Source: Deltaproteobacteria bacterium
Lineage (GTDB): Bacteria; Bdellovibrionota_G; JALEGL01; JAGRMV01
Assembly: GCA_020441045.1 (NCBI GenBank)
Contig: JAGRMV010000003.1
Coordinates: 1 to 35,257, forward strand
Direction of reading: 5' to 3'
DNA: 35,257 nucleotides
Part shown: positions 15,947-35,155 of the stretch, piece after piece
How positions within the stretch are numbered: the first letter of the stretch is position 1
How the letters are laid out: each line of letters begins with the position of its first letter
Made by a program: the position numbers and the translations under genes
Notes under the pieces: generated by a model
Told to the model about the DNA's origin: nothing
Database searches by the model: none
Seen by the model: the letters and a program-made list of their open reading frames with translations, nothing else

Positions 15947-17249
15947 TATACGATGCTGCCATATGCCCGCTCTTTACAGCACTCTCAATGGTACACGGAA
16001 GCCCCGTATCAACCCAGTCACCTGCATAATAAAGCCCTTTCACATCTTGGCTCTGAATATTAGGTCGAACTATATTCTGACCAAGTGGAGGTAACCAAGT
16101 TGCATTTTTCATCAAACTCTTTTTTGCTCTAGATATGCTCACGTCACCACACAGTGGAGCCAATGTTTGTTTTGCCATTGTAATCAAATCGCTTGTGGAT
16201 TTTTTGATCAAGTCATCTGCACCAGAGGCAACCAGAGTATAATGCGATACTGATTGATCCTGCATAAACGATTGTTTACGAAAAACCCAGTGAAACGGCG
16301 TATCCCAAAAACCAACATATGCATCGTCAAACAAATGTCGATTCGTCCATATATGGAGTGAGACAATAGGGGAAGACTCCATATGTTTTACGTTACGCGC
16401 GAGAGTTTGCAATCTAGATTCTTTTGCCAATAGCCGATACAAATGGTTGGGCGCAATAGCAGTAATCACATAATCTGCTTGCACCTTTTCCCCATTTTGT
16501 AGAACAACACCTTTGATCTTTTCATGATCAAGTATCAATTCAGATACAGTTTCACGCAAACGTATAGATCCACCTTTTTTTGCCATATAGGCTTGAGCGG
16601 CATCTCCAAAGAGCTCTGTCAACCCAACATCAGCCAATCCCGAAGCAGAGTCTTTACAAGAAGCCATAAAACCCTGTGTCAAAACGACCTTCAGCAAGTC
16701 TGCAGGTGCCCTTTTGGGATCGACATTCAGTGTTGCCAAAATCAAAAGGTCCCAAAAACGCGTTTGGGTTGTTTGACTTTGTTTGCACCGACTCAAAAAT
16801 TCCGCGCAAGACATGCAAGCCAGTTGCGTATCTGTATATTTTTTTAACCCTCGTACAACATGGATGATTGAAAATCTTTCTAACATTGAGAATGCCCGGT
16901 ACTGCATATAGCCCAACAAAAGATGTAAAGGAGCAGGCAAACGGTAGGTTTGCAAAAAGGCTTTCTCACCTGAAAGACCGATCATTAAGGTCGAAAAGGC
17001 ATTACGGTATTTTACATGCTGATCTACACCCAGCCGACGCAGAAATCGGTCTGTTTCGTTATAGCAACCTAAAAACATATGCTGCCCATTATCGACAGGC
17101 TCACCTGTGGCAGGATCGGCTACAGAACTGGTTCTACCTCCCAAAATCCGGCTCTTCTCAAAAACTGTAGCTTGGTAGCCTTTTTCTACAAGTGCTGTTG
17201 CTGCACTTAATCCTGCACACCCACCACCTATGATAATGACTTTTTTCAT
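15924..17249 (-). CDS. hpnE: Squalene-forming FAD-dependent oxidoreductase HpnE
   Basis: A 441-residue flavoprotein of the carotenoid/phytoene desaturase superfamily. The N-terminal dinucleotide-binding motif is VIIIGGGCAGLSAATAL, followed by LGGRTSS and DNGQHMFLGCY, as in HpnE; the C-terminal FAD motif is GLYYAGDWVDTGLPCTIESA. HpnE reduces hydroxysqualene to squalene, the last step of the HpnCDE route. Its ATG immediately follows the hpnD stop codon, so the genes form a tight operon. It converges on arginase with overlapping ends. Carotenoid desaturation is an alternative role of the superfamily, but the hpnC-hpnD context settles it. Confidence 0.93.
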   Translation of the reverse strand: MKKVIIIGGGCAGLSAATALVEKGYQATVFEKSRILGGRTSSVADPATGEPVDNGQHMFLGCYNETDRFLRRLGVDQHVKYRNAFSTLMIGLSGEKAFLQTYRLPAPLHLLLGYMQYRAFSMLERFSIIHVVRGLKKYTDTQLACMSCAEFLSRCKQSQTTQTRFWDLLILATLNVDPKRAPADLLKVVLTQGFMASCKDSASGLADVGLTELFGDAAQAYMAKKGGSIRLRETVSELILDHEKIKGVVLQNGEKVQADYVITAIAPNHLYRLLAKESRLQTLARNVKHMESSPIVSLHIWTNRHLFDDAYVGFWDTPFHWVFRKQSFMQDQSVSHYTLVASGADDLIKKSTSDLITMAKQTLAPLCGDVSISRAKKSLMKNATWLPPLGQNIVRPNIQSQDVKGLYYAGDWVDTGLPCTIESAVKSGHMAASYIINQKFA

Positions 17250-18071
17250 TTAAAAAAAAGAGCCTATATATTGTTTGCGAGAAATCCAAAATTTTTTCCA
17301 TATGGGCACAGTCACTTTATTGGATAAAATAATTTTTGGGTGCTTCGAAATGGCTCTATAAATTTCAGCATATACACCCTTCATGACTTCTGCAGGCCAT
17401 ATTTTTTTGCGATCCAATGTTTTATAAGTTTGCGCAGATTGTTGAAAATAGGCTCCTGCCACCTGCAAAAAATCTAAAACCATGGTCTCAAAAGCAGAAG
17501 ACCAGTGTTTCTGCAAAAAATCTTCCTGCGTAATTTCATATTGAGTCCAATGTTCCTGTGGAATATAGATCCGATTCATTGCGCTATCAGTAAAAATATC
17601 TCTGGCAATATTGGTCAATTGTAAGGCGCGACCTGTAGCAATAACATAATCTGATGGAATCTCTACATGTTGTTCAAAAACGTCCATACACATATAGCCA
17701 ACGCTACTTGCCACAGCATCACAATAAACAAAAAGATCATTCCAAGTCTGATATTTTTTCTGGGAAATATCCTGTAATACTCCATCCATCAACCAATACA
17801 AATGGGAAACAGGAATCGAAAATTTCTGCACACTCCAATGCAACTCTTGGAAAAAGATTTCTTTCGACACATCCAACACATCGACTTTCTTGCGAATGTT
17901 GGTTAGACCGATCAACGCGGAAACATCGTCTGTTGCTTCATCAACTGTATCATCAACGACGCGACAAAACGCGTAAATCGATGACAGCGCCCGCTTCTTA
18001 TCTTTATTAAGACCCCAAAAAGCGGCATCAAAACTTGTCTTACTTTGTTTTAAAACGGTCTCAGGATGCAT
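17250..18071 (-). CDS. hpnD: Presqualene diphosphate synthase HpnD
   Basis: A 273-residue trans-prenyltransferase of the squalene/phytoene synthase fold that condenses two farnesyl diphosphates to presqualene diphosphate. Two Asp-rich motifs that bind Mg and diphosphate are seen: DDTVDE at residues 40-45 and NIARDIFTD in the second half, followed by the conserved RIYIP. The string GRALQLTNIARDI is characteristic of HpnD and phytoene synthases. The start overlaps the hpnC stop by 11 bases and the stop abuts hpnE. Phytoene synthase activity is the alternative, made unlikely by the paired hpnC and hpnE. Confidence 0.92.
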   Translation of the reverse strand: MHPETVLKQSKTSFDAAFWGLNKDKKRALSSIYAFCRVVDDTVDEATDDVSALIGLTNIRKKVDVLDVSKEIFFQELHWSVQKFSIPVSHLYWLMDGVLQDISQKKYQTWNDLFVYCDAVASSVGYMCMDVFEQHVEIPSDYVIATGRALQLTNIARDIFTDSAMNRIYIPQEHWTQYEITQEDFLQKHWSSAFETMVLDFLQVAGAYFQQSAQTYKTLDRKKIWPAEVMKGVYAEIYRAISKHPKIILSNKVTVPIWKKFWISRKQYIGSFF

Positions 18072-18915
18072 AACCTAGACAAGCCCTCAAAAGCATATAA
18101 AGTTTATCCCTTTTTTTGATCATGGGCCTCTGTGATAACACACAATACCTTTGTTTTTTGATTTTTTGTAAAATCATCTCTCCGCCCAACACAATCATGG
18201 CAATTTCTTTTTGCAAACGACCATCTAATAGGGGGATCAACTTCTTACCCTCGTCAAACATCGTCTGCGTTTGAGCTACCAAGTATTGTATCACTTGTGT
18301 AAAAGCTTGGTTCTCATCTCTTTGGTATAATCTTTCAAGAGAGTACCCAAATCCTTGCATAATATTGGTTGGAATATAGACCCGTTTTTTTTCTAAATCC
18401 ACCGATACATCTTGCCAAAAATTGGTAAATTGCAAAGCACTGCATATCGCATCCGAATATACATTCAGCTGTTCATGACGATAACCGTGGATGGACAAAT
18501 ACAACCGACCGATAGGGTTGGCAGAGCGTCTTGCATAATCAACGATACCTGACCAGTTGGCATACTCACTTTGCTGCACATCTTGTTCAAATGCATCTAA
18601 AAGATCGTAAAAAAGTGCGTGTGGCAAAGCATGTTTCTCAATCGTATCTGCCAAAGTGAGGAAAAGTGGATCTTTTGCGTTTCCCGCAATGCATTCATCC
18701 AGCAGGTGTCGCCATTTTTTTAGCTCCTCCATTCGCCGCCCATCAAACATAGCTTCGTCTGCATAATCATCGGCAGTCCGCGCGAAAGCATAAATCGCAT
18801 GGAGGCTTTGCCGATACTTTGCGGAGATCAACCAAGATGCCACTGGAAAATTTTCATAATGGTCCCGGGCAAGACGACTGTAAGATTGATAGTCATGGAT
18901 ATGTTGAGAAGTCAT
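18061..18915 (-). CDS. hpnC: Hydroxysqualene synthase HpnC
   Basis: A 284-residue paralogue of HpnD that converts presqualene diphosphate to hydroxysqualene. HpnC hallmarks are HYENFPVASWL near the N-terminus, DDYADE as the first Asp motif, RRSANPIGRLYL in the middle, and FTNFWQDVSVD with RVYIP as the second. The open frame runs up to 19047, but a start there would run across the divergent lipoprotein start at 19030; MTSQHIHDYQSYSRLA at 18915 gives the usual HpnC length and has AGG six bases upstream. First gene of hpnC-hpnD-hpnE. Squalene is the precursor of hopanoids and sterols; no squalene cyclase gene is in the window. Confidence 0.92.
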   Translation of the reverse strand: MTSQHIHDYQSYSRLARDHYENFPVASWLISAKYRQSLHAIYAFARTADDYADEAMFDGRRMEELKKWRHLLDECIAGNAKDPLFLTLADTIEKHALPHALFYDLLDAFEQDVQQSEYANWSGIVDYARRSANPIGRLYLSIHGYRHEQLNVYSDAICSALQFTNFWQDVSVDLEKKRVYIPTNIMQGFGYSLERLYQRDENQAFTQVIQYLVAQTQTMFDEGKKLIPLLDGRLQKEIAMIVLGGEMILQKIKKQRYCVLSQRPMIKKRDKLYMLLRACLGYAS

Positions 18916-19029
18916 AGAAACCTGTAAAAAGGATTTTTTTTGTCTATACCCTTTTCTGGCCATTTTGGCAAAAAAAACTACCATTTGGTTGCGTTGAGTC
19001 ATCTGGTTTTTTCTGCTATAGAAAAGATT

Positions 19030-19701
19030 ATGAAGTTGGGGAACCATTTTATAAAAACTGGTTTGAGTGTTGTTTTACTATTTCTCTCAAGCTGTCAAAA
19101 AATGGATACCTTTGATCAAGAAGGTATGATGGAAGTTTTTAACGGCACCATGCGTGTTACACCTGGTATCAGTAGTGAAATCAAGTCAGATATCAACTCC
19201 GTAGGCATGTTTTCTTACAACTCTAACGGCAAAGAGGTCATTATTGCCGATGCGTCTGGTAAAGCGATCTCGCTTCGAGAGATGCTTTTGGCCAACGCCA
19301 GCGCCGAGCAAGTTGACAAGTTCAAACTTCTTTTAACCATCAAAGAACTGCACCCAGATGATCGACTCGAATTTTCTGGATTTCGTGGAGAAGTTGTTCC
19401 AGGAACAGGGGGGAAGGAACTCCGCGTAACCCAACTCGAATCATCCACACAAGGTATCAAAGAGCTCAATGTCCAGGTCGAAGGCTATGCAAAAATCGAC
19501 CGTAAAAACAAACTGTATATTACAAGCAATATCCATGTATTCATCAACAAAATTGATATTGAAAATTTTTTACCAGAGTTATTAGAAGTGATTGCGGTGG
19601 GCGAAGACAATAAACCACTTTCGGAAGTAGATGATGATAGTTATATATTGTCTATTGCCAATATTCAGTTTACTGGTGTAGCTTTAACGGGACTATTGTA
19701 G
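19030..19701 (+). CDS. Lipoprotein of unknown function
   Basis: A 223-residue protein with a lipoprotein signal: a basic start (MKLGNHFIKTG), a hydrophobic core and the lipobox LSSC with the acylated Cys at 23. The longer frame from 18940 would place about 30 residues before the signal peptide and is rejected. The mature part is beta-rich and acidic with no recognised domain; FRGEVVPGTGGKELRVTQLE and KLYITSNIHVFINKIDIENF are its most patterned stretches. The ribosome site is weak. It lies ten bases upstream of the large exported protein at 19712, so the two are probably co-transcribed and may work together at the envelope. Confidence 0.7.
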   Translation: MKLGNHFIKTGLSVVLLFLSSCQKMDTFDQEGMMEVFNGTMRVTPGISSEIKSDINSVGMFSYNSNGKEVIIADASGKAISLREMLLANASAEQVDKFKLLLTIKELHPDDRLEFSGFRGEVVPGTGGKELRVTQLESSTQGIKELNVQVEGYAKIDRKNKLYITSNIHVFINKIDIENFLPELLEVIAVGEDNKPLSEVDDDSYILSIANIQFTGVALTGLL

Positions 19702-22608: not shown

Positions 22609-23988
22609 TCAAAAATTTCCAGCGTTATTGATCTTGATATCACCATTGCCTGTTTGTAAGCTGGTAATACCATAATACCCGCCAGCTCCAATGGCCACAA
22701 TCCCAGCCCAGAACCACCATTTTTTATATAATTTCGTTTTTGCAGCTTGCGCTTGTTGAATACCTTGGTTTTCTTGTCTCGCCTGCCCAAGTGCTGATAC
22801 ATTGGGGTCAGCAGCAAGCATGTTTTGTTTACCTGAATTCACCAAATATCCATCTGCACGGATTTGAGTCAGTAGGGCCGCTGCCAAATCAGCATTTGAA
22901 CCCGGCAAATCAGCCAAACTATTGCCCATATGAATAAAAGCCACTTGTGAAAACTCGCCCGTACGAACATCAAACAATTGACCAAGTATCCGATACCCCT
23001 CTACCTTCTCAATATTCGATAAAAAAACCATATCTGCCCCCAGCGCTCTACCGCGATTCTGGATAAAGCTTACATCTTGTGATTGCTGATCTGCGCCTTC
23101 TCGAATGCGAAATAAATGTTGTTCTTTTGAAATATTGATCAGTGGTTGAATATTTGCCTGCAGGTTTTCGACAGGCTTGTTAAGTTCGACCAATTTTGTC
23201 CATGGTGTTAAAGGACTTTTGGGAGACTCCACCAGCACATAATAGGTGCCAGGTATTAACCGTAAAGTTGATGGCACTTTTCCTTCGAGCTTACCATTGA
23301 TATAAATATTGGCGCTACTGATATTACTGCTAATTTTTACAGTTACGCGTGGTTTCTGTAAAACTCTCTGTTTTACTTTTTCAAATGCTTCTACCACTTC
23401 AGGTGAGTACGTTCTCGTCGATAACGTCAAATTGGTATCAAGATAAACCGCTTTTTCTAGTTCCTTATGTGCAAGCTCTTCGTATGCAATTTTTGTTGGA
23501 CTTTGCTTAAAAAGAGCCAATAAAGACATGGCAAGATACAAATGAGATTTCAATAAATCTCGATTCGATCGCAAGTGAGAGAGGTTACGAATCCACTCAT
23601 CTCGACTTTCAGCAAGGAGCTGTTGCGCTTGGTCAAACTCCAAATATTGATATGCTTGCACGCCATCTTCAAGAAGCTTTTTTGCCTTAACCAAATACAC
23701 TTCATCTTTTTGTTCCACTTCAGCAGGGACTACATGCTTTTGAATAAACGCCTGTATTTCATGTGGGGGAACGACCGTAACTTGATTCGCTTGATAAAAA
23801 GATTCAAATGCAGCACGCTGAATTTGCGGATACCTATCTTGGATAGCATCAAGCACTTTTACATGGTCAACCAAAATTTTGGGCTTACCAAAAGTTTTAG
23901 CGTCATCTGCATAGCTGAGCATGGGCAATAACCAAATCATCAATACCCAATAAGTAAAGAAAGATTTGTATCTATAAAACCACGACAT
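22609..23988 (-). CDS. PEGA-domain envelope protein, third of three tandem paralogues
   Basis: A 459-residue protein: signal peptide or N-terminal anchor at 10-28 (ending MLSYADDAK), a helical TPR-like region at about 80-200, a PEGA domain at about 215-285 (VTVKISSNISSANIYINGKL, then KVPSTLRLIPGTYYVLVES), a mixed domain to about 380 and a C-terminal membrane helix (WWFWAGIVAIGAGGYYGI) near 425-445. The PEGA core is degenerate compared with its two neighbours. PEGA domains are carbohydrate- or surface-associated beta modules. Orientation suggests a periplasmic body held by the C-terminal helix. The ATG follows the previous stop by one base, so it is the last gene of a coupled operon. Function unknown. 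Confidence 0.8.
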   Translation of the reverse strand: MSWFYRYKSFFTYWVLMIWLLPMLSYADDAKTFGKPKILVDHVKVLDAIQDRYPQIQRAAFESFYQANQVTVVPPHEIQAFIQKHVVPAEVEQKDEVYLVKAKKLLEDGVQAYQYLEFDQAQQLLAESRDEWIRNLSHLRSNRDLLKSHLYLAMSLLALFKQSPTKIAYEELAHKELEKAVYLDTNLTLSTRTYSPEVVEAFEKVKQRVLQKPRVTVKISSNISSANIYINGKLEGKVPSTLRLIPGTYYVLVESPKSPLTPWTKLVELNKPVENLQANIQPLINISKEQHLFRIREGADQQSQDVSFIQNRGRALGADMVFLSNIEKVEGYRILGQLFDVRTGEFSQVAFIHMGNSLADLPGSNADLAAALLTQIRADGYLVNSGKQNMLAADPNVSALGQARQENQGIQQAQAAKTKLYKKWWFWAGIVAIGAGGYYGITSLQTGNGDIKINNAGNF

Positions 23989-23989
23989 G

Positions 23990-25267
23990 TTAAGGAATCT
24001 CCGTCACCAGAGTGCTACTAGACACCCCACTATCGAGTATTCCACTAAAGTACACACCAGCTCCTGCACCAATCACAACTACGCCAACCGCTGGCCAGAA
24101 CCACCACTGCTTAGTGATACGTTGCTTTGCCGCTGCCGGCTCTTTGGGCGGATCATAGTTTACTGTGGTTTGTTGTTGTTTTAGCTGCTTTGCAGGGATT
24201 TCTTTTGCTACACTTGATGGAACCGCAGGAGTTTTAACCACATAACCGTCGTTACCAATAAAGGCTAATAGTGACGAAACCAACTCCTTGGGATTTTGCG
24301 CTTCAATTGCCGGTGAAAGTTCCTGACTTCTTTGATCAAACAATTGACCTCTGACTTTACCCGACAGCGGGGTTAAAAACAAAAAGATATCCCCACCAAC
24401 ACTTAAACCAATTTCATCCAAAAAAGTGACGCGATTTTTTTCCATTTCAGCAACATTAGCCACTGTATCAAAAAAACGTATTGCATCTTGTTCTTGAAGG
24501 GAAGCAAGGTCTGCTGTCACGCGATTTTGTCCAACCACAATAAATTGCTCTGTGACTTTTTCTTCGAAACCTTGCAAAGCAAACCGAAAATAATGTTTAC
24601 CTACAGGAATATTTTTAAGTGAAGCCGGTGCCTTACCTATGCTTTGGCCATCAAAAAAAACTTCTGCCCCAGCGGGTTCGACTTGGATCGTCACATCCCC
24701 AACGTCTCTTTTTTCAAAAGCGTGATAGACTTCTTCATAAAGCTTTCTTACTTGAGGAGAGTAATATTTTTCAGAAAGTTTTTTTTCTTTGCGGGAAGGA
24801 TCAATCAGCATGACTTCTTCCATTTGGATGCGTGCTTCTTGCGTACGTCCCAAAGCTAAAAAACTTTGGGCCAACTGAAATTTTGTTGTACGAAACGATG
24901 TAAATGAATCTTCATCCCAGAGCGTACCTTTATATAAACGTTCAGCTTTACGAAAGTAGTCTACTGCATTTTCCATATCAAGATTTTGATAGGCATTTTT
25001 ACCCTGCTGAAAAAACTCAAATGCTTCTTTTGATGATGAAGGTTGTTGTTTTGATGAATATTTCTCAATAAACGCACGAACCTCCTCATGCTCAACAACT
25101 AAGACTTTATCCGAAGCAAGTAACTGATTTGTGATAGCCTCAACCGCAGGTTTAGACTGTTCCCCACGCATAGGAGAAACGACAACCGATGGTTTAGACT
25201 GCGCATATAAATTATTCACACCTACAACAATGAAAAATAATAAAGATATACGACAGACTTTCATCAT
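23990..25267 (-). CDS. PEGA-domain envelope protein, second of three tandem paralogues
   Basis: A 425-residue protein with a signal peptide (1-22, ending NNLYAQ), an N-terminal segment (SVVVSPMRGEQSKPAVEAI, then LVVEHEEVRAFIEKY) that resembles the start of CsgG/TolB-N-like domains, a TPR-like helical region (about 85-185), a clear PEGA domain (189-256: VTIQVEPAGAEVFFDGQSIG, KAPASLKNIPVGKHYFRFAL), and a C-terminal membrane helix (WWFWPAVGVVVIGAGAGVYF) at about 390-412. Its start codon overlaps the stop of the first paralogue as TGATG. Same architecture as both neighbours, which points to tandem duplication. Role inferred as a periplasmic scaffold or binding protein; not established. Confidence 0.82.
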   Translation of the reverse strand: MMKVCRISLLFFIVVGVNNLYAQSKPSVVVSPMRGEQSKPAVEAITNQLLASDKVLVVEHEEVRAFIEKYSSKQQPSSSKEAFEFFQQGKNAYQNLDMENAVDYFRKAERLYKGTLWDEDSFTSFRTTKFQLAQSFLALGRTQEARIQMEEVMLIDPSRKEKKLSEKYYSPQVRKLYEEVYHAFEKRDVGDVTIQVEPAGAEVFFDGQSIGKAPASLKNIPVGKHYFRFALQGFEEKVTEQFIVVGQNRVTADLASLQEQDAIRFFDTVANVAEMEKNRVTFLDEIGLSVGGDIFLFLTPLSGKVRGQLFDQRSQELSPAIEAQNPKELVSSLLAFIGNDGYVVKTPAVPSSVAKEIPAKQLKQQQTTVNYDPPKEPAAAKQRITKQWWFWPAVGVVVIGAGAGVYFSGILDSGVSSSTLVTEIP

Positions 25268-26592
25268 CAGTTCAAAGGATTATCCACGTTTAAAACATTC
25301 GATGTCATACTTCCGCCCGAACCAGCCAAAATGAAATATCCACCTACACCAACTGCAAGTGCGCCAAGACCAATCCATAAAAGGTTCGTATTAAAGCCCT
25401 TGTCTTTCTTGACTTCTTTTTTGGCGTATGAAGGCTCCTGAAAATCTTTTTGGAAATCGATATCACCGGTTATGGGTGTGGATACTTTTTTGACAACGGC
25501 ATCAATCCACTGTTCAACTGCCTTAACCACTCGCTGGCTGACTTTTTTAGGTTTTCCACTTACACTCTTGGTAAACACCGAAGAATACTTACCTGCCATC
25601 ACATCATAACTTTGTAGTTTCATATCCAACTGCTGTTTATCGTTGGCCTCAACTTGCCCCAAAATAAAGTAATCAATAGAATGTTCTTTCGCTGCGCTTT
25701 GCAAAATACGTGTTTGCTGGCTGTCTTTTTCTTGCTCAAATTGGTTTTTGGCCAAGAATATTTTCTCTTGCTCTAGTTTAGCAATGATATTTTGTTCACC
25801 CTCTTTTACGTCCAGAAGTTGTTTGTATAACTTATGCCCAGCTTGATCGATCGCGATAAAATGTTCACCCGCAGGAACATCACTGATAGTAACCGGCGTC
25901 TCTCCGACGTCCATACCATCAAGCATAACCTTGGCAGCTGATGGATTTGAATCAATATGAATGGTACCACTGGGCAATTTTTGGACAATAGCGGCTTGGT
26001 TACTATGAATTTCGACAATTTTTGGTGGAAAATCTCGCGAAGGCAGTTTTCTGGTCTTTCTTTGGGTGTCCAGTTTGACCATTTCTTGGATGATCTTTTT
26101 TCCTTCATTTTCTCTACCATCAAAATAAAGGGCCATGCCTAAATACAAATGAGAATACAACAAATAATGATTATCTTGTAAAGAACCTATACCCGCACGG
26201 TAGCCTTTGACTGCTCGATTAAGCTCGCGAATCGCCTGCGCCAACTCCAATGTTCGATAATGTTCCACACCCTGGACAAAATGCTCATACGCGCTTTGGA
26301 TTTTTTCAGAAGAGGCCTGCGATAGTCGACTCATAGGCTGCATGATTTCGACCTCAACAGTAGACTCGCTTAATACTTGAAAATCTTCTTTTGATTGCAA
26401 TGTATCACGAATGGTTTGGGATACGCTCTTTTCTTCATCACGGTGCACCCCATGTTGAAAACCAATAATGGCAACATTTTTTCGGGAAAGTGCTTGCCCA
26501 TACACAGGAAGATCAATAGAAACAGCGCCCAAAAACACGGCCATATATAAAGCCAATGATTGTTTGACGCCAAGTGGAGGAAATTTCACCAT
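25267..26592 (-). CDS. PEGA-domain envelope protein, first of three tandem paralogues
   Basis: A 441-residue protein with signal peptide (to about 33, PVYGQA), a CsgG/TolB-N-like N-terminal segment (NVAIIGFQHGVHRDEEKSVS), TPR-like helices (about 95-200, with NHYLLYSHLYLGMALYFDG), a canonical PEGA domain (208-275: IHIDSNPSAAKVMLDGMDVG, ETPVTISDVPAGEHFIAID), a domain with IDYFILGQVE, and a C-terminal membrane helix at 403-424 (LLWIGLGALAVGVGGYFIL). AAGGGA lies some seven bases before the ATG. First gene of the three-gene unit, divergent from tadC with 109 bases between starts. Comparable proteins are common in deltaproteobacterial-type genomes but their job is not known. Confidence 0.82.
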   Translation of the reverse strand: MVKFPPLGVKQSLALYMAVFLGAVSIDLPVYGQALSRKNVAIIGFQHGVHRDEEKSVSQTIRDTLQSKEDFQVLSESTVEVEIMQPMSRLSQASSEKIQSAYEHFVQGVEHYRTLELAQAIRELNRAVKGYRAGIGSLQDNHYLLYSHLYLGMALYFDGRENEGKKIIQEMVKLDTQRKTRKLPSRDFPPKIVEIHSNQAAIVQKLPSGTIHIDSNPSAAKVMLDGMDVGETPVTISDVPAGEHFIAIDQAGHKLYKQLLDVKEGEQNIIAKLEQEKIFLAKNQFEQEKDSQQTRILQSAAKEHSIDYFILGQVEANDKQQLDMKLQSYDVMAGKYSSVFTKSVSGKPKKVSQRVVKAVEQWIDAVVKKVSTPITGDIDFQKDFQEPSYAKKEVKKDKGFNTNLLWIGLGALAVGVGGYFILAGSGGSMTSNVLNVDNPLN

Positions 26593-26701
26593 CTAAAGTC
26601 CCTTTTTTGATACAATATTCCTGTAAGAGTATGATTTTATTTCTATTTACCTCCTAAAAGAGTAACATAAATAGGTCAAAATAGCATTGAAAAGAAAAAC
26701 C

Positions 26702-27655
26702 ATGTTAGATTTTATTCAACAAATTTCGTCAGTTGGCCCCAAATACCTTAGCCTTTTTTGCGGCGCGCTGGCGGCGTTCACTTTAATTTACAGCATTTTC
26801 CCTGACACCTCGCAACTCGCTGCTCGCAAACGACTGGGGATGGAAGATGAAAGTGTACAACCCAAGAACATTGCCGTTTTTAAATTGCTATATCCACTAT
26901 ACTCAGCGATTGCGTCATTATTTTATTCAGAATATTTTCCAAGCTGGGCTGTAGCTTGGGTTGAAAAAAAACGCCCGACAGTAAGCAGGAAACTAACCAT
27001 TGCCAATCTCCGAAGTGAAATTACTCCAGATGAGTTTATTGCATTTGGCCTGACCATGGCTGCACTTGTTCCATTGTTAATGTATTATTTGTTTGGTACG
27101 CTGCGCTTTAATATCCCAACTTTTCTTCACCCTGCCATATTGCTGTTTGGTTTTTTCTACTCTGATTTATGGCTGGCCCAAGCTGTCAAAGCAAGACAAA
27201 AAAAAATTCTCCGCGCCCTCCCTTATACACTTGATCTCTTAACGCTTTCTGTCGAAGCCGGAATGGACTTTATTGCAAGTCTACAACGCATGTCTGAGCG
27301 GAGTAAAAAAACTGCGTTACTGGAAGAACTCGATATTGTGCTCAAAGAAATTCGCCTGGGTACCACCCGCTCAGACGCGCTTCGCAATTTAGGCGAAAGG
27401 CTGGATATTGAAGAAATTGCATCCTTTACTTCGTTGTTGATCCAAGCCGATCAACTCGGTTCATCCATCGGCATGGTTTTACGCGCACAATCTGACCAAC
27501 TACAGACCAGAAGGTTTCAAAATGCTGAAACAGCTGGTGCCAAAGCTTCACAGTTGATATTGCTTCCATTGGTATTTTGTATTTTTCCAGCTGTCTTTAT
27601 CGTCATCTTGGGCCCGCTGGTGATTAAGTTTTTGGTCCAAGGAGGCCTTGTTTAA
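26702..27655 (+). CDS. tadC: Tad pilus inner-membrane platform protein TadC (type II secretion F domain)
   Basis: A 317-residue (312 from this ATG) membrane protein of the GspF/TadC family that forms the inner-membrane platform of Tad/Flp pili together with TadB. Seen are an N-terminal helix (about 15-35), a basic RKRLGMEDE cytosolic stretch, paired helices at about 112-155, the conserved soluble helical bundle RALPYTLDLLTLSVEAGMDF through GSSIGMVLRAQSDQLQTRRF (about 170-270), and a final double helix (LILLPLVFCIFPAVFIVILG). A TTG at 26687 is an alternative start, adding five residues; ribosome sites are weak for both. TadB and the ATPase TadA are not adjacent: upstream lies the divergent PEGA operon. 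Confidence 0.88.
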   Translation: MLDFIQQISSVGPKYLSLFCGALAAFTLIYSIFPDTSQLAARKRLGMEDESVQPKNIAVFKLLYPLYSAIASLFYSEYFPSWAVAWVEKKRPTVSRKLTIANLRSEITPDEFIAFGLTMAALVPLLMYYLFGTLRFNIPTFLHPAILLFGFFYSDLWLAQAVKARQKKILRALPYTLDLLTLSVEAGMDFIASLQRMSERSKKTALLEELDIVLKEIRLGTTRSDALRNLGERLDIEEIASFTSLLIQADQLGSSIGMVLRAQSDQLQTRRFQNAETAGAKASQLILLPLVFCIFPAVFIVILGPLVIKFLVQGGLV

Positions 27656-27659
27656 AACC

Positions 27660-28007
27660 ATGGTTGTTGCTCGATTGCAAAAAAACAATGCAGTGATCTC
27701 CGACCATGTGATCCAAGCAGACACTTTTGGCAAAAGGCTCAAAGGCCTGATTGGATACAAACAGCTTCCTCCTAACCATTCCATACTCATCAAGCCTTGC
27801 AAAAGCATTCATACTTTTTTTATGCGGTTTCCCATTGATGTACTTTTCTTATCTGATCAAAATGATGTTATTGCCATGTATAAAGCTTTACAGCCTTATC
27901 GTATCACAGCAACCGTTCGCAAAGCCTGCGCAGTTTTAGAAACCAATGCCGGCGTGATTATTACACATCAAATCAGCCTTCGAGATCAATTGAGGTTTGA
28001 AATATGA
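27660..28007 (+). CDS. DUF192 family protein
   Basis: A 115-residue protein with the DUF192 pattern: GKRLKGLIG (24-32), IHTFFMRFPIDVLFLSD (50-66) and AVLETNAGVI (91-100). The function of DUF192 proteins is unknown; many members have a signal peptide, but none is seen here, so it seems cytoplasmic. GGAGG at 27641-27645 is 14 bases from this ATG and two bases from a TTG at 27648, so the start is uncertain. The 3' end overlaps the next gene as ATGA. It is embedded between tadC and the FHA genes, where DUF192 genes are sometimes found in Tad-type clusters. Confidence 0.8.
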   Translation: MVVARLQKNNAVISDHVIQADTFGKRLKGLIGYKQLPPNHSILIKPCKSIHTFFMRFPIDVLFLSDQNDVIAMYKALQPYRITATVRKACAVLETNAGVIITHQISLRDQLRFEI

Positions 28008-29089
28008 AACCCGTTTTGCATATCATCTCAGGTGTCGCAGCCACCCGAAGTTTTGATCTCAGGCAAGGTGACCAAACCATAGGTCGAGAAAACTCCGCCG
28101 ACATCCAAATCCCATCTAAAGAAATTTCCAGACATCATGCTCGCATTACAATACAAGGCGAGAAAGTTGCAATCATTGACCTGCAAAGTTCCAATGGCAC
28201 GATTGTCAACACCAAACGTGTTAATTCCAAAGCGCTCAAACATAAAGACCGTATCATTCTAGGGGACGTTATTTTAGAATTTCGTGACGAAGAAAAGTAT
28301 ATCGCACAGAAGTTTGATGGTGGCAAAACCCTTTATCAACAAGCTACCAAAGTCATGACCGAACGTCTCAAACCCAGAAACCTATGGCCGTATTTCTTTA
28401 TGTTCTTTGGGTTTTCATTTGTTTTGGTGTCTTGGTTGATGCATTCCTCTTATAAAAGTCTTCTGCACGACCGACTGACCCAGTCCTATATCCAAAACGC
28501 ACAAAATATCACGCGCTATCTTGCTGAAAAAAACCGTGAAGATCTTAAACTGCATAACCACCTTTTACTTGATGTGAGTGTAGTCGAAAATGAGCCCGGG
28601 GTGATCGATGCCATGGTCATCAGCAACAAAGGTCGTATTCTTGCGCCAGCCAAAAATGCTGATAAAACCGATCAAGGACCCTATGTCATGGAAGCACTCA
28701 GCCATGATTCCAACACGCTTATTCTCCCAAGTCCGCGCAATAGTAAAGGCCACCAAGTATTTGTCCACCCCATTCGTGTCTATGACGATCGGCAAGGCAA
28801 ATACGTCACCCTGGGTGTCGCCAAGATTATTTTTTCAGCCGATAAAGCCATTGGCGATCTCCCTGAAACAGATCAAATGCTTTATTTGATGTTATTGCTA
28901 TCATTATTGATTTCAATGGGCTTAAGCTGGATTGTCTCTAAATCACTATCGATTCCCATTACCCAATTGGCCGAAAAAGTGCAGCGTTGGCGCACCGGTC
29001 AAGCCTATCAAAACCAATCCGCACCGTTTAAAGATTGGGATCCATTATATCAAGCCATTGAACGAGCCATCGAAGAGGCTGACAAATAG
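28004..29089 (+). CDS. Transmembrane FHA-domain protein with extracytoplasmic sensor and HAMP
   Basis: A 361-residue protein: FHA domain at about 5-95 with the phosphothreonine-binding residues (GR at 27-28, SRHH at 42-45, NG at 64-65), membrane helix 128-147, an outside region of about 145 residues (148-291, with VVENEPGVIDAMVISNKGRI resembling a Cache-type sensor), membrane helix 292-311, and a HAMP-like tail (KSLSIPITQLAEKVQRW). There is no kinase, cyclase or methyl-accepting domain after HAMP, so the FHA domain at the N-terminus is the likely output or input partner. The design suggests an envelope signal altering docking of a phosphorylated partner in the Tad-type apparatus; this is inference. 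ATGA overlap with DUF192. Confidence 0.85.
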   Translation: MKPVLHIISGVAATRSFDLRQGDQTIGRENSADIQIPSKEISRHHARITIQGEKVAIIDLQSSNGTIVNTKRVNSKALKHKDRIILGDVILEFRDEEKYIAQKFDGGKTLYQQATKVMTERLKPRNLWPYFFMFFGFSFVLVSWLMHSSYKSLLHDRLTQSYIQNAQNITRYLAEKNREDLKLHNHLLLDVSVVENEPGVIDAMVISNKGRILAPAKNADKTDQGPYVMEALSHDSNTLILPSPRNSKGHQVFVHPIRVYDDRQGKYVTLGVAKIIFSADKAIGDLPETDQMLYLMLLLSLLISMGLSWIVSKSLSIPITQLAEKVQRWRTGQAYQNQSAPFKDWDPLYQAIERAIEEADK

Positions 29090-29225
29090 TAAAACTTTGG
29101 GCATTGTGCCTCACAGATTCAATAGTGTTCAAATCCTAAGAATGTTATACAATATCGCTTACGTTTATTGAAAAGCAAAAACCACTTCGATTTGGTGTAT
29201 ACTATACATGTAGGGCAATAATAAA
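29090..29225 (+). other. Spacer between FHA genes, possible internal promoter
   Basis: This 136-base gap breaks an otherwise tightly packed gene row. TATACT at about 29200, preceded by TTTGGTG, could be a -10 box for the second FHA gene, but no -35 box at proper distance is found. No gene seen. Confidence 0.3.
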
Positions 29226-30179
29226 GTGAATCAAGAACAAAACATATGGTTAGAGGCTACCCAAGGGCTGATTCAAGGCCAAAAACTACCCATCGATCAG
29301 GGCCAGATCACTTTTGGCCGGACTGCACAAAACGATGTGGTATTGGCTGAGCAAGCCATATCTCGACAGCATGCACGTATTTTCTTTGAAAACAATCAAT
29401 TATGGATCACTGATTTAGGTAGCAAAAACGGCACAATGGTGAACAAAAAAACTATTACCCCCCATCAAAACGTTGCAATCCATCCCAATGACTCCATTCA
29501 GCTGGGATCGACCATTTTACACGTTATCAAAAACCCGTCATCCTTTACTCATATATCGAGGGCTGATCCAGGACCTAAAAAAAATACAACCCTGGCCAGA
29601 CTCAAAGCCAACCCCTTACCCGACTTTCTTGCCAAAGGTAAGTCGTTTAAACTTCCCCCCATCAATCGAAGAGTAGTCCTCTACGGGGGAATGGTTTTTG
29701 TATTGTTGGTTTTGGTAATTTCCTCATCTTCTAAAAGACAAAAAAACCAAACACCCTCATTAAAATCAACTTATGAGAAACAAACCATCACCATCCCAGA
29801 TCACTTTCAAACCGATAGCGACCAGATACAAAAAATACCAACGCTTGAAGAGGTCGAGCTACTTATTTCTCAAGCACAATCTGCCATTCGTTTCGAAGAT
29901 TATCATACGGCCATACGCTTATATGAACAGATTCTTAAAGTTCGGCCTGAAGATGAAAAAATCATTGCTTACTATAATGTCGCGAAACAGAATTTATATC
30001 GAAAAATTCAAATCAATCGAAATATTGCAATCATTGAAGTAGAAAAACTCAATTTTGAAAAAGCCATGCAACATTGGCAGCGTATTGCTGAATTGACGCA
30101 AGGGCTTGATCCAGAAAGATATAACGAAGCACAAGAACAGATCAAGTCTCTAAGGAGCATGATTGAAAATCCGTCATGA
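29226..30179 (+). CDS. FHA-domain protein with membrane anchor and TPR-like tail
   Basis: A 317-residue protein beginning at GTG. The FHA domain (about 5-100) keeps its binding residues: GR 31-32, SRQH 46-49, NG 68-69 (LGSKNGTMVN). A linker leads to a membrane helix at 148-166 (RRVVLYGGMVFVLLVLVIS), and then a tail with a TPR-like helix pair (about 215-300: ELLISQAQSAIRFEDYHTAI, then RLYEQILKVRPEDEK). By topology the FHA part is cytoplasmic and the TPR part periplasmic. It overlaps the next FHA gene as ATGA. Together with its neighbours it forms a trio of membrane FHA proteins. Specific partner unknown. Confidence 0.85.
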   Translation: MNQEQNIWLEATQGLIQGQKLPIDQGQITFGRTAQNDVVLAEQAISRQHARIFFENNQLWITDLGSKNGTMVNKKTITPHQNVAIHPNDSIQLGSTILHVIKNPSSFTHISRADPGPKKNTTLARLKANPLPDFLAKGKSFKLPPINRRVVLYGGMVFVLLVLVISSSSKRQKNQTPSLKSTYEKQTITIPDHFQTDSDQIQKIPTLEEVELLISQAQSAIRFEDYHTAIRLYEQILKVRPEDEKIIAYYNVAKQNLYRKIQINRNIAIIEVEKLNFEKAMQHWQRIAELTQGLDPERYNEAQEQIKSLRSMIENPS

Positions 30180-32302
30180 ATATCAGTATCAAAAAAGACG
30201 GCAAGCTGATCAAACAAGTGACGCTACAAAACCAACCTTTGATTGTGGGTCGCTCAACTTCCGCGGATATCCAACTCCTTGATGCTACCATTTCAAGACA
30301 GCACCTAAAAATCACCAACAATAACCTTTCAGTAACTTTTGAAGATCTGGGATCCCGCAATGGTATTTTTTTTAAAGGATCAAAAGTTCGCAGTAAAGAA
30401 ATTTTTCCAGGGCAAAATGTTCGTGTCGGCATCTATATTATATCTGTAGATGCACTTGATCCATCTGAACAAAAAACCATTGCCATGCTAGAAGAAGGCG
30501 AAGAGGCAAAAACCGAAGTTGCCTATACTCTTGATGATGTCGATATGGCTGACGAACTCACTCTAGATGCACCGCCTATAGAAATTTCCAACCCACTGTT
30601 ACATGCTGATGTAGTAATGCCTGAAAACGACGAAGATCTCCATAAAGCAAGTACAAACAAGTCTAAAACCAATAATGCAGATTCTTTTATGCAGGCTATT
30701 GCCGTATCACAACCTCCGCATTCCTTGCCAGATATTGAAGATATGCATGACTCAAAAACACATTTGGATACGCAAGAAGAAAGCTTTGCCTTTGAAAACT
30801 CTAACCCTTCATTTGCTAGTATCGAAGATGCACCCATGGCCAACCTTGACCAAGAGGATACCAGTGAAAACATTCATCCATCAAATCTGTCTAAAAAAAA
30901 TATCCGCGAAACCAGGGAAGATAAAAATTTGGAAGAGGATGAAAAAAGTTTTTTCGACAATGGGATTGCGACCAAGAAGATTAACTCAGATGAAATTGTA
31001 AGCTCTCCTGTGATTGAAAATTCCAACCCTCTATTTTCAGAAGTTCTCAAAGAGGAAAATAAAGAAGATGAAAAAACACCTTCGATCGCGTTTTCTTCTC
31101 TACAAAGTAGCCCACAAATCAAAAGTGATGATTCGCCAAGGGATATCTTTCAAAATAATCACCCCGAGGATCAGGAAAGCAATATTGAAACCGGTGCTTT
31201 TACCCCACCAACCCCATCTAGTTCACGTACGCAAATTCGCAACTTTGAGCGGGTGCCCTCTCCAGCTCCTTCAAAAACACTTTCAACTGCCAAAAAATAT
31301 ATGTTTGTGCTTTCGGCCATTCTCATTGCAGCACTTATGCTTTTTTTGGATAAAGATGTTCAACGCGCCATCTTTCGCAAAGAAGCCAAAACATCTTCTC
31401 CCCAAAATATAGATAAAGAAAGTACACGCATCGTTCTTTTTAAAATCGAAAAAGTTCGAAAAAACCTAGAAGACGAAGACCTTACAGCTGCCAAACAAGA
31501 GGTCAAAATATTGTTGACAGAATACCCCGAACACCCTGAAGTAAAAAAGTTTTTACCTGAATTCAACCAGAATAAGGCCCTGATTGAGCAAAAAATACAA
31601 ATCGAAGAACTCGAAAAATCAAAAAAACAAGATCAGGTCACACTTTTTTCACAGCAAGCCAGTAAACTTATAGAAGATAAAAACTACGATGCTGCCATTG
31701 AGACCTATCAAAAAATATTACAAATCGCGCCGGATGACCCCGATGCCTTGGAGGGCATTGATACCGCCGAGTCTCTTAAAATTCAAGAAGAACGCAAAGA
31801 GTTTGCAAAAAAGCAAAAACACCAAATGCTCGATCGCATATTTAATGAGGGGGTAGAGAAATTCGAGGCCGGTGAATTTGGCAAAGCCAAAAAACTTTTC
31901 GAACAGGTTACAGCCGATGGGAGCCACGCAAAACACAAAAAAGCCGACGATTTTTTATCCAAAATTGCAACGCAAACCGATGGCGCGCTCAATGAAAAAA
32001 TAGATGAGGCTAAACAACAGATTGATAATACCATCACACTCCCAGAAGCTTATAAGACACTATCCACATTAACCAAGCAATTCCCACAACACAAAGAAGC
32101 CAAAGAATATCTTAAACTTGCCGAAGATAAGATGTTACAAAAAGCCAAACAACTCTACGCTGAAGCCATTGCTCAGGAAGAGCTGGCCGGGGATTTCTCA
32201 ACCGCGCTTGACCTGTATCACGAAGTACTCATTTATGCCCCAGATCCAAGCAGCGCCTACCATAAAAAGGCCAAAGAAAAGATCGAAAAACTAGAACTGT
32301 AA
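30176..32302 (+). CDS. Large FHA-domain protein with acidic linker, membrane anchor and TPR repeats
   Basis: A 708-residue protein of the same plan as the preceding one. FHA domain at 1-95 (GRSTSADIQLLD, SRQH 40-43, LGSRNGIFF), then about 270 residues of acidic, low-complexity linker rich in Asp, Glu, Ser and Asn, one membrane helix at about 374-393 (YMFVLSAILIAALMLFL), and a long helical part with TPR repeats, the clearest at about 495-530 (NYDAAIETYQKILQIAPDDP). In the FHA domain the Thr that usually follows NG is Ile. The long linker contains two similar ENSNPxF motifs and a related ISNPLLH, which may be short docking sites. Topology: FHA and linker inside, TPR outside. Last gene before the pilin promoter. 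Confidence 0.85.
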   Translation: MNISIKKDGKLIKQVTLQNQPLIVGRSTSADIQLLDATISRQHLKITNNNLSVTFEDLGSRNGIFFKGSKVRSKEIFPGQNVRVGIYIISVDALDPSEQKTIAMLEEGEEAKTEVAYTLDDVDMADELTLDAPPIEISNPLLHADVVMPENDEDLHKASTNKSKTNNADSFMQAIAVSQPPHSLPDIEDMHDSKTHLDTQEESFAFENSNPSFASIEDAPMANLDQEDTSENIHPSNLSKKNIRETREDKNLEEDEKSFFDNGIATKKINSDEIVSSPVIENSNPLFSEVLKEENKEDEKTPSIAFSSLQSSPQIKSDDSPRDIFQNNHPEDQESNIETGAFTPPTPSSSRTQIRNFERVPSPAPSKTLSTAKKYMFVLSAILIAALMLFLDKDVQRAIFRKEAKTSSPQNIDKESTRIVLFKIEKVRKNLEDEDLTAAKQEVKILLTEYPEHPEVKKFLPEFNQNKALIEQKIQIEELEKSKKQDQVTLFSQQASKLIEDKNYDAAIETYQKILQIAPDDPDALEGIDTAESLKIQEERKEFAKKQKHQMLDRIFNEGVEKFEAGEFGKAKKLFEQVTADGSHAKHKKADDFLSKIATQTDGALNEKIDEAKQQIDNTITLPEAYKTLSTLTKQFPQHKEAKEYLKLAEDKMLQKAKQLYAEAIAQEELAGDFSTALDLYHEVLIYAPDPSSAYHKKAKEKIEKLEL

Positions 32303-32450: not shown

Positions 32451-32465
32451 TTTATAGAAAGTGTG

Positions 32466-32690
32466 ATGTCGATAAGACTTTTGACATACCCTCAAAACAA
32501 AGGCCAAGCCTTGGTGGAATACGCCTTGTTGATCCCTGTGATCGCAGGTCTTTTTCTCCTGAGTACTTTGTTTTATCAGAGTTACGTCCAAGAGAACTTA
32601 TACGGCAAACACGCAAACTACGAAAGATTTATGGAAGGAGAAAACCCAAGCCTCGGTCAAGAAATGATTGTCAGCTTGCCTATTCCATAA
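32466..32690 (+). CDS. Flp/TadE-type pilin-like protein
   Basis: A 74-residue protein with a short basic leader (MSIRLLTYPQNKG), a class IV-type processing motif G-QALVEY with Glu at +5 and Tyr at +6, and a hydrophobic helix (ALLIPVIAGLFLLSTLFY). The remaining 35 residues are hydrophilic. It looks like a Flp/TadE-family pilin or minor pilin, assembled after cleavage by a prepilin peptidase. GTG at 32463 is a possible start. The predicted sigma-54 transcript begins at 32461, so either start leaves almost no leader and no ribosome site. First gene of the pilin cluster. Confidence 0.75.
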   Translation: MSIRLLTYPQNKGQALVEYALLIPVIAGLFLLSTLFYQSYVQENLYGKHANYERFMEGENPSLGQEMIVSLPIP

Positions 32691-32720: not shown

Positions 32721-32912
32721 ATGAAAAAATTCATCCAACAAAACAAAAAAACCAAAGGCCAATCTACACTTGAGTACGCTCTGGTCATTGGCGTTATTGT
32801 CACCGGCATTATTATTGCGGCCCAGAACTTTGTCGGTGGTGAAGATTCTGCAGCTGGTGAGCTTTTCAATAAAGCTATTGGTAAAGCAAGCCAAACACTT
32901 GACAGTGAATAG
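32721..32912 (+). CDS. Flp-type pilin subunit
   Basis: A 63-residue protein with the hallmarks of Flp pilins: positively charged leader MKKFIQQNKKTKG, cleavage motif G-QSTLEYALVIGVIV (Glu +5, Tyr +6), hydrophobic helix to about residue 35, and a small polar tail. AGGAG is eight bases before the ATG. Probably the main structural subunit of the pilus made by this locus, being the closest to canonical Flp; abundance cannot be read from the sequence. Confidence 0.85.
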   Translation: MKKFIQQNKKTKGQSTLEYALVIGVIVTGIIIAAQNFVGGEDSAAGELFNKAIGKASQTLDSE

Positions 32913-33137: not shown

Positions 33138-33776
33138 GTGCCATTGTATGCACAAAGCAATCAAAATCGATTAAAAAAAGCCGGTCAAGCTTCGCTTGAA
33201 CTTGCGCTGTTATTTCCCCTTTTATTTTTATTATTTTTTGGCGGGATCCAAATCATCATTTACATCCAATCGGCTACTGCTGTGCAATATGCAGCCTTTT
33301 CATCTGCCAGAGCCTTTCAAGTCTATGGTGATCGCAAACTTGCTGATATCGGATATCGCAAAATCGCCTCTCATCCCAAGACCAATGCCGACCAAACCAT
33401 TGCTGAAGCCGCAGCCGAAATGGTTATTTTTGAAAGTTTGATGTGGGAGCAAAGTCGCATAGACCAACGCTCGAGCCTAGATATTTTCAATCGTGTCTAC
33501 GAGGATGGTAACGATCTATCTTACAACCGCGGAGCAAGCTATGCATCTGGTGGCGCGGTTAAAGTCAATTTACATTGCGCCCATCCAGGGGGCTGTGAAA
33601 ATGGCGAAGGCGTCACGGTCACTTACTGTATGCCGTTTGTGTTTCCAGGGGTTGATCTTTTCTTTGCCGCTCGTGAAAAAGAATATCCCTGTAAAGTACA
33701 GAGATTTGGCCGAAGCTATAACGGTGTTGCCTTGAGCAAATCTATCTTTTTAGGTCGGGAGCCATTGGAGCGATGA
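33138..33776 (+). CDS. TadE-like minor pilin
   Basis: A 212-residue protein that starts at GTG, with AAAGGAG ten bases upstream. After a basic leader comes G-QASLELALLFPLLFLLFFGG, the TadE processing motif (Glu +5) and membrane helix, then a region typical of TadE-like proteins (AVQYAAFSSARAFQVYG, the helical part following the anchor) and a C-terminal domain with four cysteines (LHCAHPGGCENGEG, TYCMPF, EYPCKV) that may form disulphides outside the cytoplasm. TadE-like proteins are pseudopilins needed for Flp pilus assembly. Coupled to the next gene by ATGA overlap. Confidence 0.82.
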   Translation: MPLYAQSNQNRLKKAGQASLELALLFPLLFLLFFGGIQIIIYIQSATAVQYAAFSSARAFQVYGDRKLADIGYRKIASHPKTNADQTIAEAAAEMVIFESLMWEQSRIDQRSSLDIFNRVYEDGNDLSYNRGASYASGGAVKVNLHCAHPGGCENGEGVTVTYCMPFVFPGVDLFFAAREKEYPCKVQRFGRSYNGVALSKSIFLGREPLER

Positions 33777-35155
33777 AATTCTTACGTTCAGATATACACT
33801 TAAACTGTAAGGGCCAGCTCACACTCGGTTTGGCTTTTGGTTTTACGATGATGCTGGCACTGTTTGCATTTGTTTTTAATACGAGCATGAACGTACGGGA
33901 AAAGATCAAACTCCAGCAAACAACAGACTTTGGGGTTCTGGTTGCAGCCAACGCTCAAAGAAAATATCTCGATATTATTCGCGATTACAATATCGCCATT
34001 GAAGCGCAGTGGTTTTCACATTTGGCACTTCTGCAAAACAATCACTGCGTGCAACCACTACCAGGCTTTACAATCACTGCCCCAAACAACTTACCAGGTG
34101 CAACTGATATCATTTCAATCCAAAATGTGGCCCAGGCCTATATCACTCGTGCCAATATCTCCGCCGTTTCATATAATGAATTTTCTAATGATGCGTCTCT
34201 GAACACGGGCGACTATTGTGACTACATTTGCAATAAATACAACGACGCCGTCAACAGTCAGATTCGAAAGCGCTTCGCTTCCATGCGTACAATCATCAAG
34301 AACCAAATCATCAACTTGATTCTCAATGCCAACCAAGATGCGCATCAATACGCGCTTCACCACTTTCTTCAGCCCAGCAATTTACCATGGGGCCTACAAC
34401 TCAAATTGCGTTCTGTCTTAGGAGATAGCTATACTGCCACTGATACACTCGCAGGGTATCAAAACAACCTACTTAACATAGACGCCAACAATGGAGAATG
34501 GGGATATGAAGTAGCCAGTGAAAACAAGAACGACCCACTGTTTGTTCCGGGTGACGAGAGCAGACCCTTTATTTTTTATAAACATTATTTTTACCAAGAT
34601 TCACGCGCAGCTCCGACTGACATGACCCAAGTTTGTAGAGTACTCGGTCCCATTGGTGGCATCAAATCGATGAATTCCAGTGTAAAAGTCGTTAAAACAG
34701 GCTCCTACGAAACCCATTTTTTTTCCGGCATCAACTATCTGCCTCCGTCCAATCTATTTGAAAACAACGAGGCCCTGGTCAAACGCAAAACCAATCCGGA
34801 TGAATTAGGTGCGTCTGAAAACAGATTGCGTGATCCATCATTGTTGAGTCGGCGCTCCGCCATGGTTACACGCAGTGCTGCCAAACCTTTTGGAGGCAGT
34901 TTTCCTGCAGCTGTAACCAGCAATCTTACTTCTTTTATCAGCTCACTTTTATGGGGTGGCAATGCCAATACACCGCCAGCATTTACGCAAGGGGCGGGAA
35001 AAGAATTCAAAGGGGCTAAGCTTTTTGGCATCGCCGATAGTTTTGAGATTGGCGGCTACCCAATTGCCCGAGCCAATCTGGAAACCGAAACATTGGATGA
35101 GCAAGGTAATGTGCAGTCAATCTGGAAAATACTACAAGAGGACTATTTACATTGA
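33773..35155 (+). CDS. TadG-like pilus assembly protein
   Basis: A 460-residue protein with an N-terminal membrane helix in a TadE/TadG-like context (CKG-QLTLGLAFGFTMMLALFAFVF) followed by a large predicted extracytoplasmic domain. Unlike its neighbours the +5 residue after the putative cleavage glycine is Gly and not Glu, so processing is doubtful. The segment NTSMNVREKIKLQQTTDFGVLVAANAQRKYLD is like the post-anchor helix of TadG proteins. No von Willebrand A domain, common in some TadG proteins, is recognised. It overlaps TadE-like on the left (ATGA) and a further TadE-like gene on the right (TGATG). Confidence 0.75.
   Translation: MKFLRSDIHLNCKGQLTLGLAFGFTMMLALFAFVFNTSMNVREKIKLQQTTDFGVLVAANAQRKYLDIIRDYNIAIEAQWFSHLALLQNNHCVQPLPGFTITAPNNLPGATDIISIQNVAQAYITRANISAVSYNEFSNDASLNTGDYCDYICNKYNDAVNSQIRKRFASMRTIIKNQIINLILNANQDAHQYALHHFLQPSNLPWGLQLKLRSVLGDSYTATDTLAGYQNNLLNIDANNGEWGYEVASENKNDPLFVPGDESRPFIFYKHYFYQDSRAAPTDMTQVCRVLGPIGGIKSMNSSVKVVKTGSYETHFFSGINYLPPSNLFENNEALVKRKTNPDELGASENRLRDPSLLSRRSAMVTRSAAKPFGGSFPAAVTSNLTSFISSLLWGGNANTPPAFTQGAGKEFKGAKLFGIADSFEIGGYPIARANLETETLDEQGNVQSIWKILQEDYLH

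Follow-up and report, generated by a model that had tools for sequence, protein, structure and literature searches.

Kil/Tad machines are among the nearest described counterparts of the locus analysed here. Seef et al. (2021) reported that FHA proteins are over-represented in the Kil/Tad loci of Myxococcus and its relatives, assigned the systems of Bradymonadales and Bdellovibrionales to the Kil group, and suggested a signalling cascade on the model of the type VI secretion system (T6SS) (PMC8460266). In B. bacteriovorus, the operon bd0470-bd0475 comprises six genes; one of its products, Bd0474, combines two cytoplasmic FHA domains with extracytoplasmic TPRs and binds the TPR protein Bd0075 in two-hybrid assays (PMC12034629). 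A Bd0474::tn mutant still attaches to prey but has lost the ability to kill (PMC6561027). Here we describe a 35,257-nucleotide stretch of DNA (the window), which is contig C276 of a metagenome-assembled genome (G000; 2.29 Mb in 341 contigs, 92% complete). At 28004-32302 it encodes three consecutive membrane-anchored FHA proteins (FHA1, FHA2, FHA3). Our favoured reading, held with moderate confidence, is that this trio is an ancient Tad/Kil accessory module that reads Ser/Thr phosphorylation at the inner membrane and controls pilus assembly. The initial annotation of the sequence considered the design undescribed; given the publications above on FHA-rich Kil/Tad loci, on bd0470-bd0475 with its Bd0474 phenotype, and on the partner Bd0075, this view is not supported.

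With gene-order comparisons, we could establish that each of the five genomes in the small phylum to which the window belongs (G000-G004) has the order TadC-DUF192-FHA1-FHA2-FHA3, which lies on one strand in the window. The four genomes of the window's taxonomic order, each from a different family, contain a full-length FHA1 orthologue (34-43% identity between the window protein and its relatives) directly followed by FHA2 and FHA3, and TadC orthologues with 47-54% identity head the same operon in the three relatives (G001-G003). In G004, which lies outside this taxonomic order, the operon is complete from TadC through TadZ. Outside the small phylum, G134 and G046 also have the trio in order, the latter without a DUF192 match. 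The partner of G046, G191 (L194), has TadC and FHA1 only, without FHA2 and FHA3, possibly a stripped-down form.

The module is near-universal in the large phylum of G134. A profile of 17 FHA1 sequences (E <= 1e-40) detected a homologue in 233 of 241 genomes and 137 of 142 genera, nearly always as a single copy. In 43 loci from this phylum (20 picked by score, the others from further families or complete genomes), the FHA1-FHA2-FHA3 order and the DUF192 gene are present without exception as far as the contigs reach. TadC heads the module in 41 of them; in the remaining two, the contig starts only downstream of TadC. Across the domain, just 13 of 385 genomes pass 1e-30 with the FHA1 profile, and matches extend beyond the FHA domain only in G000-G004, G046, G134, G271 and, partly, G191. 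The recurrence of the three-gene order next to tadC in other genomes, which the initial annotation had proposed as a check, is thereby established, and the refuting condition that it named, an order confined to this genome, does not hold. FHA domains are common, with 14 in this genome including the three of the trio, and three unrelated FHA genes might have clustered by chance in a single metagenome-assembled genome. However, the same three architectures recur in the same order beside TadC in four families of the taxonomic order, in a second class and in other phyla. With this conserved order we can rule out chance clustering, which we consider hardly credible. These comparisons support the trio as a true module linked to TadC, conserved far beyond what chance would give.

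Conservation extends to the residues expected to contact phosphothreonine. As initially annotated, the GR, SRxH and NG residues are present in all three window FHA domains (FHA1: G27R28, S42RxH45, N64G65; FHA2: G31R32, S46RxH49, N68G69; FHA3: G25R26, S40RxH43, N62G63). In FHA1 from the first 27 loci, S, H, N and G are present in 27 of 27 sequences and GR in 26 (one is masked), and all six ligand residues are present in 23 of 23 later loci. The FHA1 ligand residues are hence invariant across 50 sequences bar one masked stretch. FHA2 retains GR and SRxH in all of the first 27 loci, and its SxxH is nearly invariant overall.

The architecture of the three proteins largely follows the initial description. 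All three genes are open frames, and their products score well above the Pfam FHA cut-off of 20.7 bits (70, 75 and 50 bits, E 3e-13 to 6e-21). Hydropathy places transmembrane (TM) helices at residues 127-145 and 293-311 of FHA1, 150-168 of FHA2 and 377-395 of FHA3. Every helix except TM2 of FHA1 carries net positive charge on its N-side, which fits an FHA domain inside and the remainder of each protein outside. The outer part of FHA1 had been described as a Cache-like sensor with HAMP, but Pfam found neither Cache nor HAMP in this protein. An AlphaFold model based on a shallow, two-sequence alignment is poor in the FHA part but reasonable over residues 124-330, where block means of the confidence value (pLDDT) are 63-86, mostly >70. 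Its Foldseek matches (E 3e-3 to 2.5e-2) include FHA domains, with Rv0020c ranked first, and the sensor domains of DcuS (E 5e-3) and WalK (E 2.5e-2). The sensor matches support a Cache-like outer domain, although their E-values are not strong. The predicted TPR tails are clear in FHA3, where TPR_19, TPR_2 and TPR_14 all exceed their Pfam cut-offs, but in FHA2 the TPR_14 match is weak and falls short of the cut-off (E 0.003).

The same module can be recognised in Bdellovibrio. The locus of a Bdellovibrio-type genome (G358) holds six genes, coding for TadC, DUF192, FHA1, FHA2, FHA3 and a PP2C-like protein. Of 18 residues named for Bd0474, 17 match on the FHA3 of this genome, compared to nine at most in 2000 shuffles, and two close relatives of G358 gave an equal result. 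This fingerprint identifies the G358 FHA3 as Bd0474. By gene position, Bd0473 (published as an FHA protein, and modelled together with Bd0475 in PMC12034629) would correspond to FHA2 and Bd0472 to FHA1. Judged by these sequence comparisons, the window module is orthologous to bd0470-bd0475 and the trio to bd0472-bd0474. TadC, DUF192 and the three FHA genes stand in identical order in both. Bdellovibrio differs in that FHA1 is longer past TM2, FHA3 has two FHA domains and the PP2C-like Bd0475 comes next, features that are missing from the window, and in that most of its other tad genes lie elsewhere in the genome (PMC5430801).

A PP2C gene follows FHA3 in G046, G134 and G302 (Pfam PP2C_2 above cut-off). 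Using a family model built from 17 such module proteins, with 20 loci held out, we found PP2C after FHA3 in 17 of the 20 held-out loci. Over the large phylum as a whole, 36 of the 43 loci have a PP2C-family gene, and in some of those without one the contig runs out; this neighbour is usual, not invariant. Many module PP2Cs keep the NED and DGxGG motifs. The clade with the Bdellovibrio protein has members without them, which are probably pseudophosphatases because both motifs are absent. The Bd0475 equivalent of G358 (L160:12022-12708) has no Pfam match, lacks NED and DGxGG, and fits the module PP2C model with E 3.5e-15 before inclusion. This result points to Bd0475, a hypothetical protein by annotation, as a degenerate PP2C. 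The PP2C gene beside the trio in other phyla supports a role in Ser/Thr phosphorylation.

Since the window has no PAS domain on FHA1, one FHA domain on FHA3 and no PP2C beside the trio, its copy is a reduced variant of the phylum norm. FHA1 ends at residue 361 with the HAMP-like stub; most relatives outside the taxonomic order are 130-200 residues longer at this point, and the extension after TM2 is a PAS domain where Pfam detects one (above cut-off in G004 and G134). Most relatives also have two FHA domains on FHA3. As in the window, FHA1 is short in G001-G003, and PP2C is absent after FHA3 in these three genomes and in G004. Ahead of the membrane helix of FHA3, FHA-like sequence persists in G001-G003, clearest in G001, but is gone from the window. 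The genome encodes two PP2Cs, and neither qualified as a relocated module protein: the C55 copy falls in a housekeeping-type clade with proteins from G001, G003, G004, G046 and G134, and the C48 copy falls in a second generic group (deep branching weak, long branches flagged).

Open reading frames and Pfam place a partial Tad pilus locus, read from the + strand, at the right end of the window (Table 1). The trio does lie between tadC and the pilins, as the initial annotation stated, with the correction that an overlooked DUF192 gene separates tadC from FHA1. Homologues of the 75-residue pilin-like gene occupy the equivalent position in L059, L061 and L093, and proteins similar to the 63-residue Flp-like one do so in L059 and L061. 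As in the classical Tad/Flp loci (Caulobacter Cpa, Aggregatibacter Tad), TadC, TadE, TadG-like and Flp-like genes occur together. To our knowledge, these classical loci contain no membrane FHA trio. The published CpaF models of Caulobacter and Aggregatibacter are also without an FHA domain (PMC12019362). Contig C1 (L058) of the same genome carries CpaB and CpaC (assigned by sequence and by synteny with G004), a TadB-like match, and TadZ and TadA apparently fused in one 711-residue reading frame (L058:4301-6436; Pfam CbiA and T2SSE). C1 starts inside a reading frame homologous to the gene after TadG in G001, and therefore probably continues the right end of the window, although we infer the join itself.

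Table 1. Features of the Tad/FHA locus in the window and parts of the three FHA proteins.
Feature	Position	Strand	Length (aa)	Evidence
PEGA-domain protein, divergent from tadC, possible partner	25267..26592	-		Pfam PEGA 55 bits
TadC inner-membrane platform, T2SSF family, heads module	26687..27655	+	322	Pfam T2SSF 61.5 bits
DUF192 protein, overlaps tadC and FHA1	27648..28007	+	119	Pfam DUF192 62.6 bits
FHA1	28004..29089	+	361	Pfam FHA 70 bits
FHA1: N-terminal FHA domain	28076-28264			
FHA1: TM1	28382-28438			
FHA1: Cache-like periplasmic domain				
FHA1: TM2	28880-28936			
FHA1: HAMP-like C-terminal stub				
FHA2	29226..30179	+	317	Pfam FHA 75 bits
FHA2: N-terminal FHA domain	29307-29507			
FHA2: single TM helix	29673-29729			
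FHA2: short TPR-like tail				
FHA3, Bd0474 orthologue	30176..32302	+	708	Pfam FHA 50 bits
FHA3: FHA domain	30242-30430			
FHA3: long acidic linker				
FHA3: TM helix	31304-31360			
FHA3: TPR tail, best repeat	31658-31750			
Small TadE/pilin-like protein	32463..32690	+	75	Pfam TadE E 0.029, below cut-off
Flp-type prepilin-like protein, GQSTLEYAL motif	32721..32912	+	63	Sequence
TadE-like minor pilin	33138..33776	+	212	Pfam TadE 39.5 bits
TadG-like protein	33773..35155	+	460	Pfam Tad (PF13400) 22.7 bits, narrowly above cut-off of 22.3

This genomic setting bears on the question as to whether the trio just happens to adjoin tadC and is an all-purpose signalling unit of the membrane with other targets, for instance gliding motility or the programme of the attack phase. 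In Bdellovibrio only tadC accompanies the trio and most tad genes are found at bd0108-0119 (PMC5430801, PMC3818213), these genomes encode many further FHA proteins, and the gliding protein GltG gives a weak match with the FHA domains. Membership in the GltG family was rejected, however, as NCBIfam NF033760 scores only 40, 27 and 25 bits on the three proteins against a cut-off of 650. Furthermore, the trio is inside the Tad operon in both the window and G004, and TadC is missing from the head of a large-phylum locus only in the two cases that start at a contig edge after it. We therefore consider a unit with other targets quite improbable.

Other genes of this genome may be noted here. Three tandem PEGA-domain proteins are encoded on the - strand at 22609-26592, divergent from tadC. 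PEGA homologues also adjoin TadC in G001-G003 (L059, L060, L061), so this set may belong to the Tad locus of the taxonomic order. At 15924-19047, two genes for squalene/phytoene synthases precede one of FAD amine-oxidase type, and together they resemble a squalene/hopanoid precursor set. Contig C122 (L057) holds a second Tad locus that encodes a secretin, a motor ATPase and TadB/TadC-like proteins but has no FHA trio.

After placing the trio in a Tad operon, we turn to how it may work. Reading of Ser/Thr phosphorylation at the Tad inner-membrane platform is the most likely function because the ligand residues are near-invariant, a PP2C neighbour is usual and the Bd0474 mutant is kill-defective. 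Phosphothreonine binding, the kinase, its substrate and the control of assembly are parts of this model that we infer. The three proteins would be neighbours in the inner membrane, their FHA domains facing the cytoplasm and their sensor or TPR parts the periplasm. A Ser/Thr kinase whose gene lies at another site would phosphorylate a threonine, either on the Tad machine or on an FHA protein of the trio. By binding this phosphothreonine, the FHA domains would bring TadC and the motor to the periplasmic scaffold or hold them there, and assembly or firing of the pilus would follow a signal, for example contact. The Cache-HAMP unit of FHA1 may report periplasmic conditions, and in many relatives the adjacent PP2C protein would reset the state.

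Several observations weigh against this mechanism. We found no binding or phosphorylation data for any trio member, and in many relatives the first FHA domain of FHA3 is without part of the ligand site. Since Bd0475 has lost the PP2C metal-site motifs, dephosphorylation by a linked protein is not universal; within the window's taxonomic order no PP2C is linked to the trio, and the PP2Cs of this genome group with generic ones. A motif scan of six-frame translations from 51 loci returned one linked kinase, in G004, and kinase linkage is thus not general. Finally, Myxococcus xanthus Kil is by published description a Tad-type machine rich in FHA proteins (PMC8460266), as is the machine encoded here, but its motor KilF has an N-terminal FHA domain whereas the probable motor of this genome, the TadZ-TadA fusion, does not: FHA is not among the 25 best Pfam families for the fusion, and a genome-wide FHA search gave no match on C1 or C122.

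The degenerate PP2C of Bdellovibrio and the erosion of the FHA3 ligand site in some lineages would also suit a structural role, in which the trio forms an inner-membrane scaffold of the Tad machine with phosphorylation-independent FHA binding as in SctD/YscD, and with TPRs that line the periplasmic space and connect to the secretin. SctD/YscD, the inner-ring protein of the type III secretion system, has the same layout of cytoplasmic FHA fold, one membrane helix and periplasmic part as FHA2 and FHA3. Pfam Yop-YscD_cpl is also over cut-off on all three window proteins, and it is the periplasmic part by which Bd0474 binds Bd0075 (PMC12034629). Yet FHA outscores Yop-YscD_cpl on each of the three, and membership in the SctD/YscD family was rejected because NCBIfam TIGR02500 gives 18.3 against a cut-off of 86 for FHA1 and is not listed for FHA2 and FHA3. 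The trio also differs from SctD/YscD in the TPR or Cache-like parts outside and in keeping phosphothreonine-contacting residues, which FHA1 and FHA2 do almost without exception. A Cache-like and HAMP-like sensor would be unexpected in a pure scaffold. On balance, we judge such a scaffold unlikely, albeit the main rival of the regulatory reading.

A reader of Ser/Thr phosphorylation has a functional parallel in the T6SS threonine-phosphorylation pathway (PpkA, PppA, Fha1), where an FHA reader and a PP2C phosphatase likewise control an envelope machine. That pathway serves another machine and uses one cytoplasmic Fha instead of three membrane FHA proteins, and the window contains neither a linked PpkA-type kinase nor a linked phosphatase. 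As for the linked Ser/Thr kinase that the initial annotation suggested looking for outside the window, the genome encodes nine Ser/Thr kinases, all on contigs other than that of the window, in which Pfam found none. The kinase gene of G004 (L093:17552-18682), the only one near a trio among the loci scanned, is divergent and lies ~3 kb from TadC beyond a MutS-like gene. On contig C277 a Ser/Thr kinase gene adjoins two tandem FHA genes, one of them with two FHA domains (L022:5862-8293); this kinase is a candidate trans partner of the trio. In the FHA3 linker, a broad phosphothreonine-type motif is mildly enriched (45 occurrences vs 33.5 expected, standard deviation 5.5). The narrower motif [KR]T.[VI], picked after viewing the first set and checked on the held-out set, occurs 8 times in held-out FHA3 linkers vs 2.5 expected, a count reached by 6 of 2000 shuffles. 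Because it is present in just 7 of 19 sequences, we take this as a hint only.

How prey contact leads to pilus assembly and killing in predatory bacteria is an open question, for which Seef et al. suspected a cascade that was left undefined. We found no paper in the open-licence literature that treats the trio, TadC and PP2C as one conserved module. The present comparison defines a fixed gene set, consisting of TadC, DUF192, FHA1, FHA2, FHA3 and usually a PP2C-like protein, that is near phylum-wide in the phylum that includes Bdellovibrio. It is possible, though we propose it tentatively and with more doubt than conviction, that TadC and the FHA trio, joined in most lineages by a PP2C enzyme or pseudo-enzyme, act throughout the phylum as a phosphorylation switch by which prey contact gates the assembly of a killing or invasion Tad pilus. 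Such a switch would be a Tad counterpart of the T6SS threonine-phosphorylation pathway that has not previously been described as one module. Since one member is already tied to a kill-defective phenotype, there are named genes and residues to test. The trio, which is not unique to this genome, may thus give a clue to what turns such pili on.

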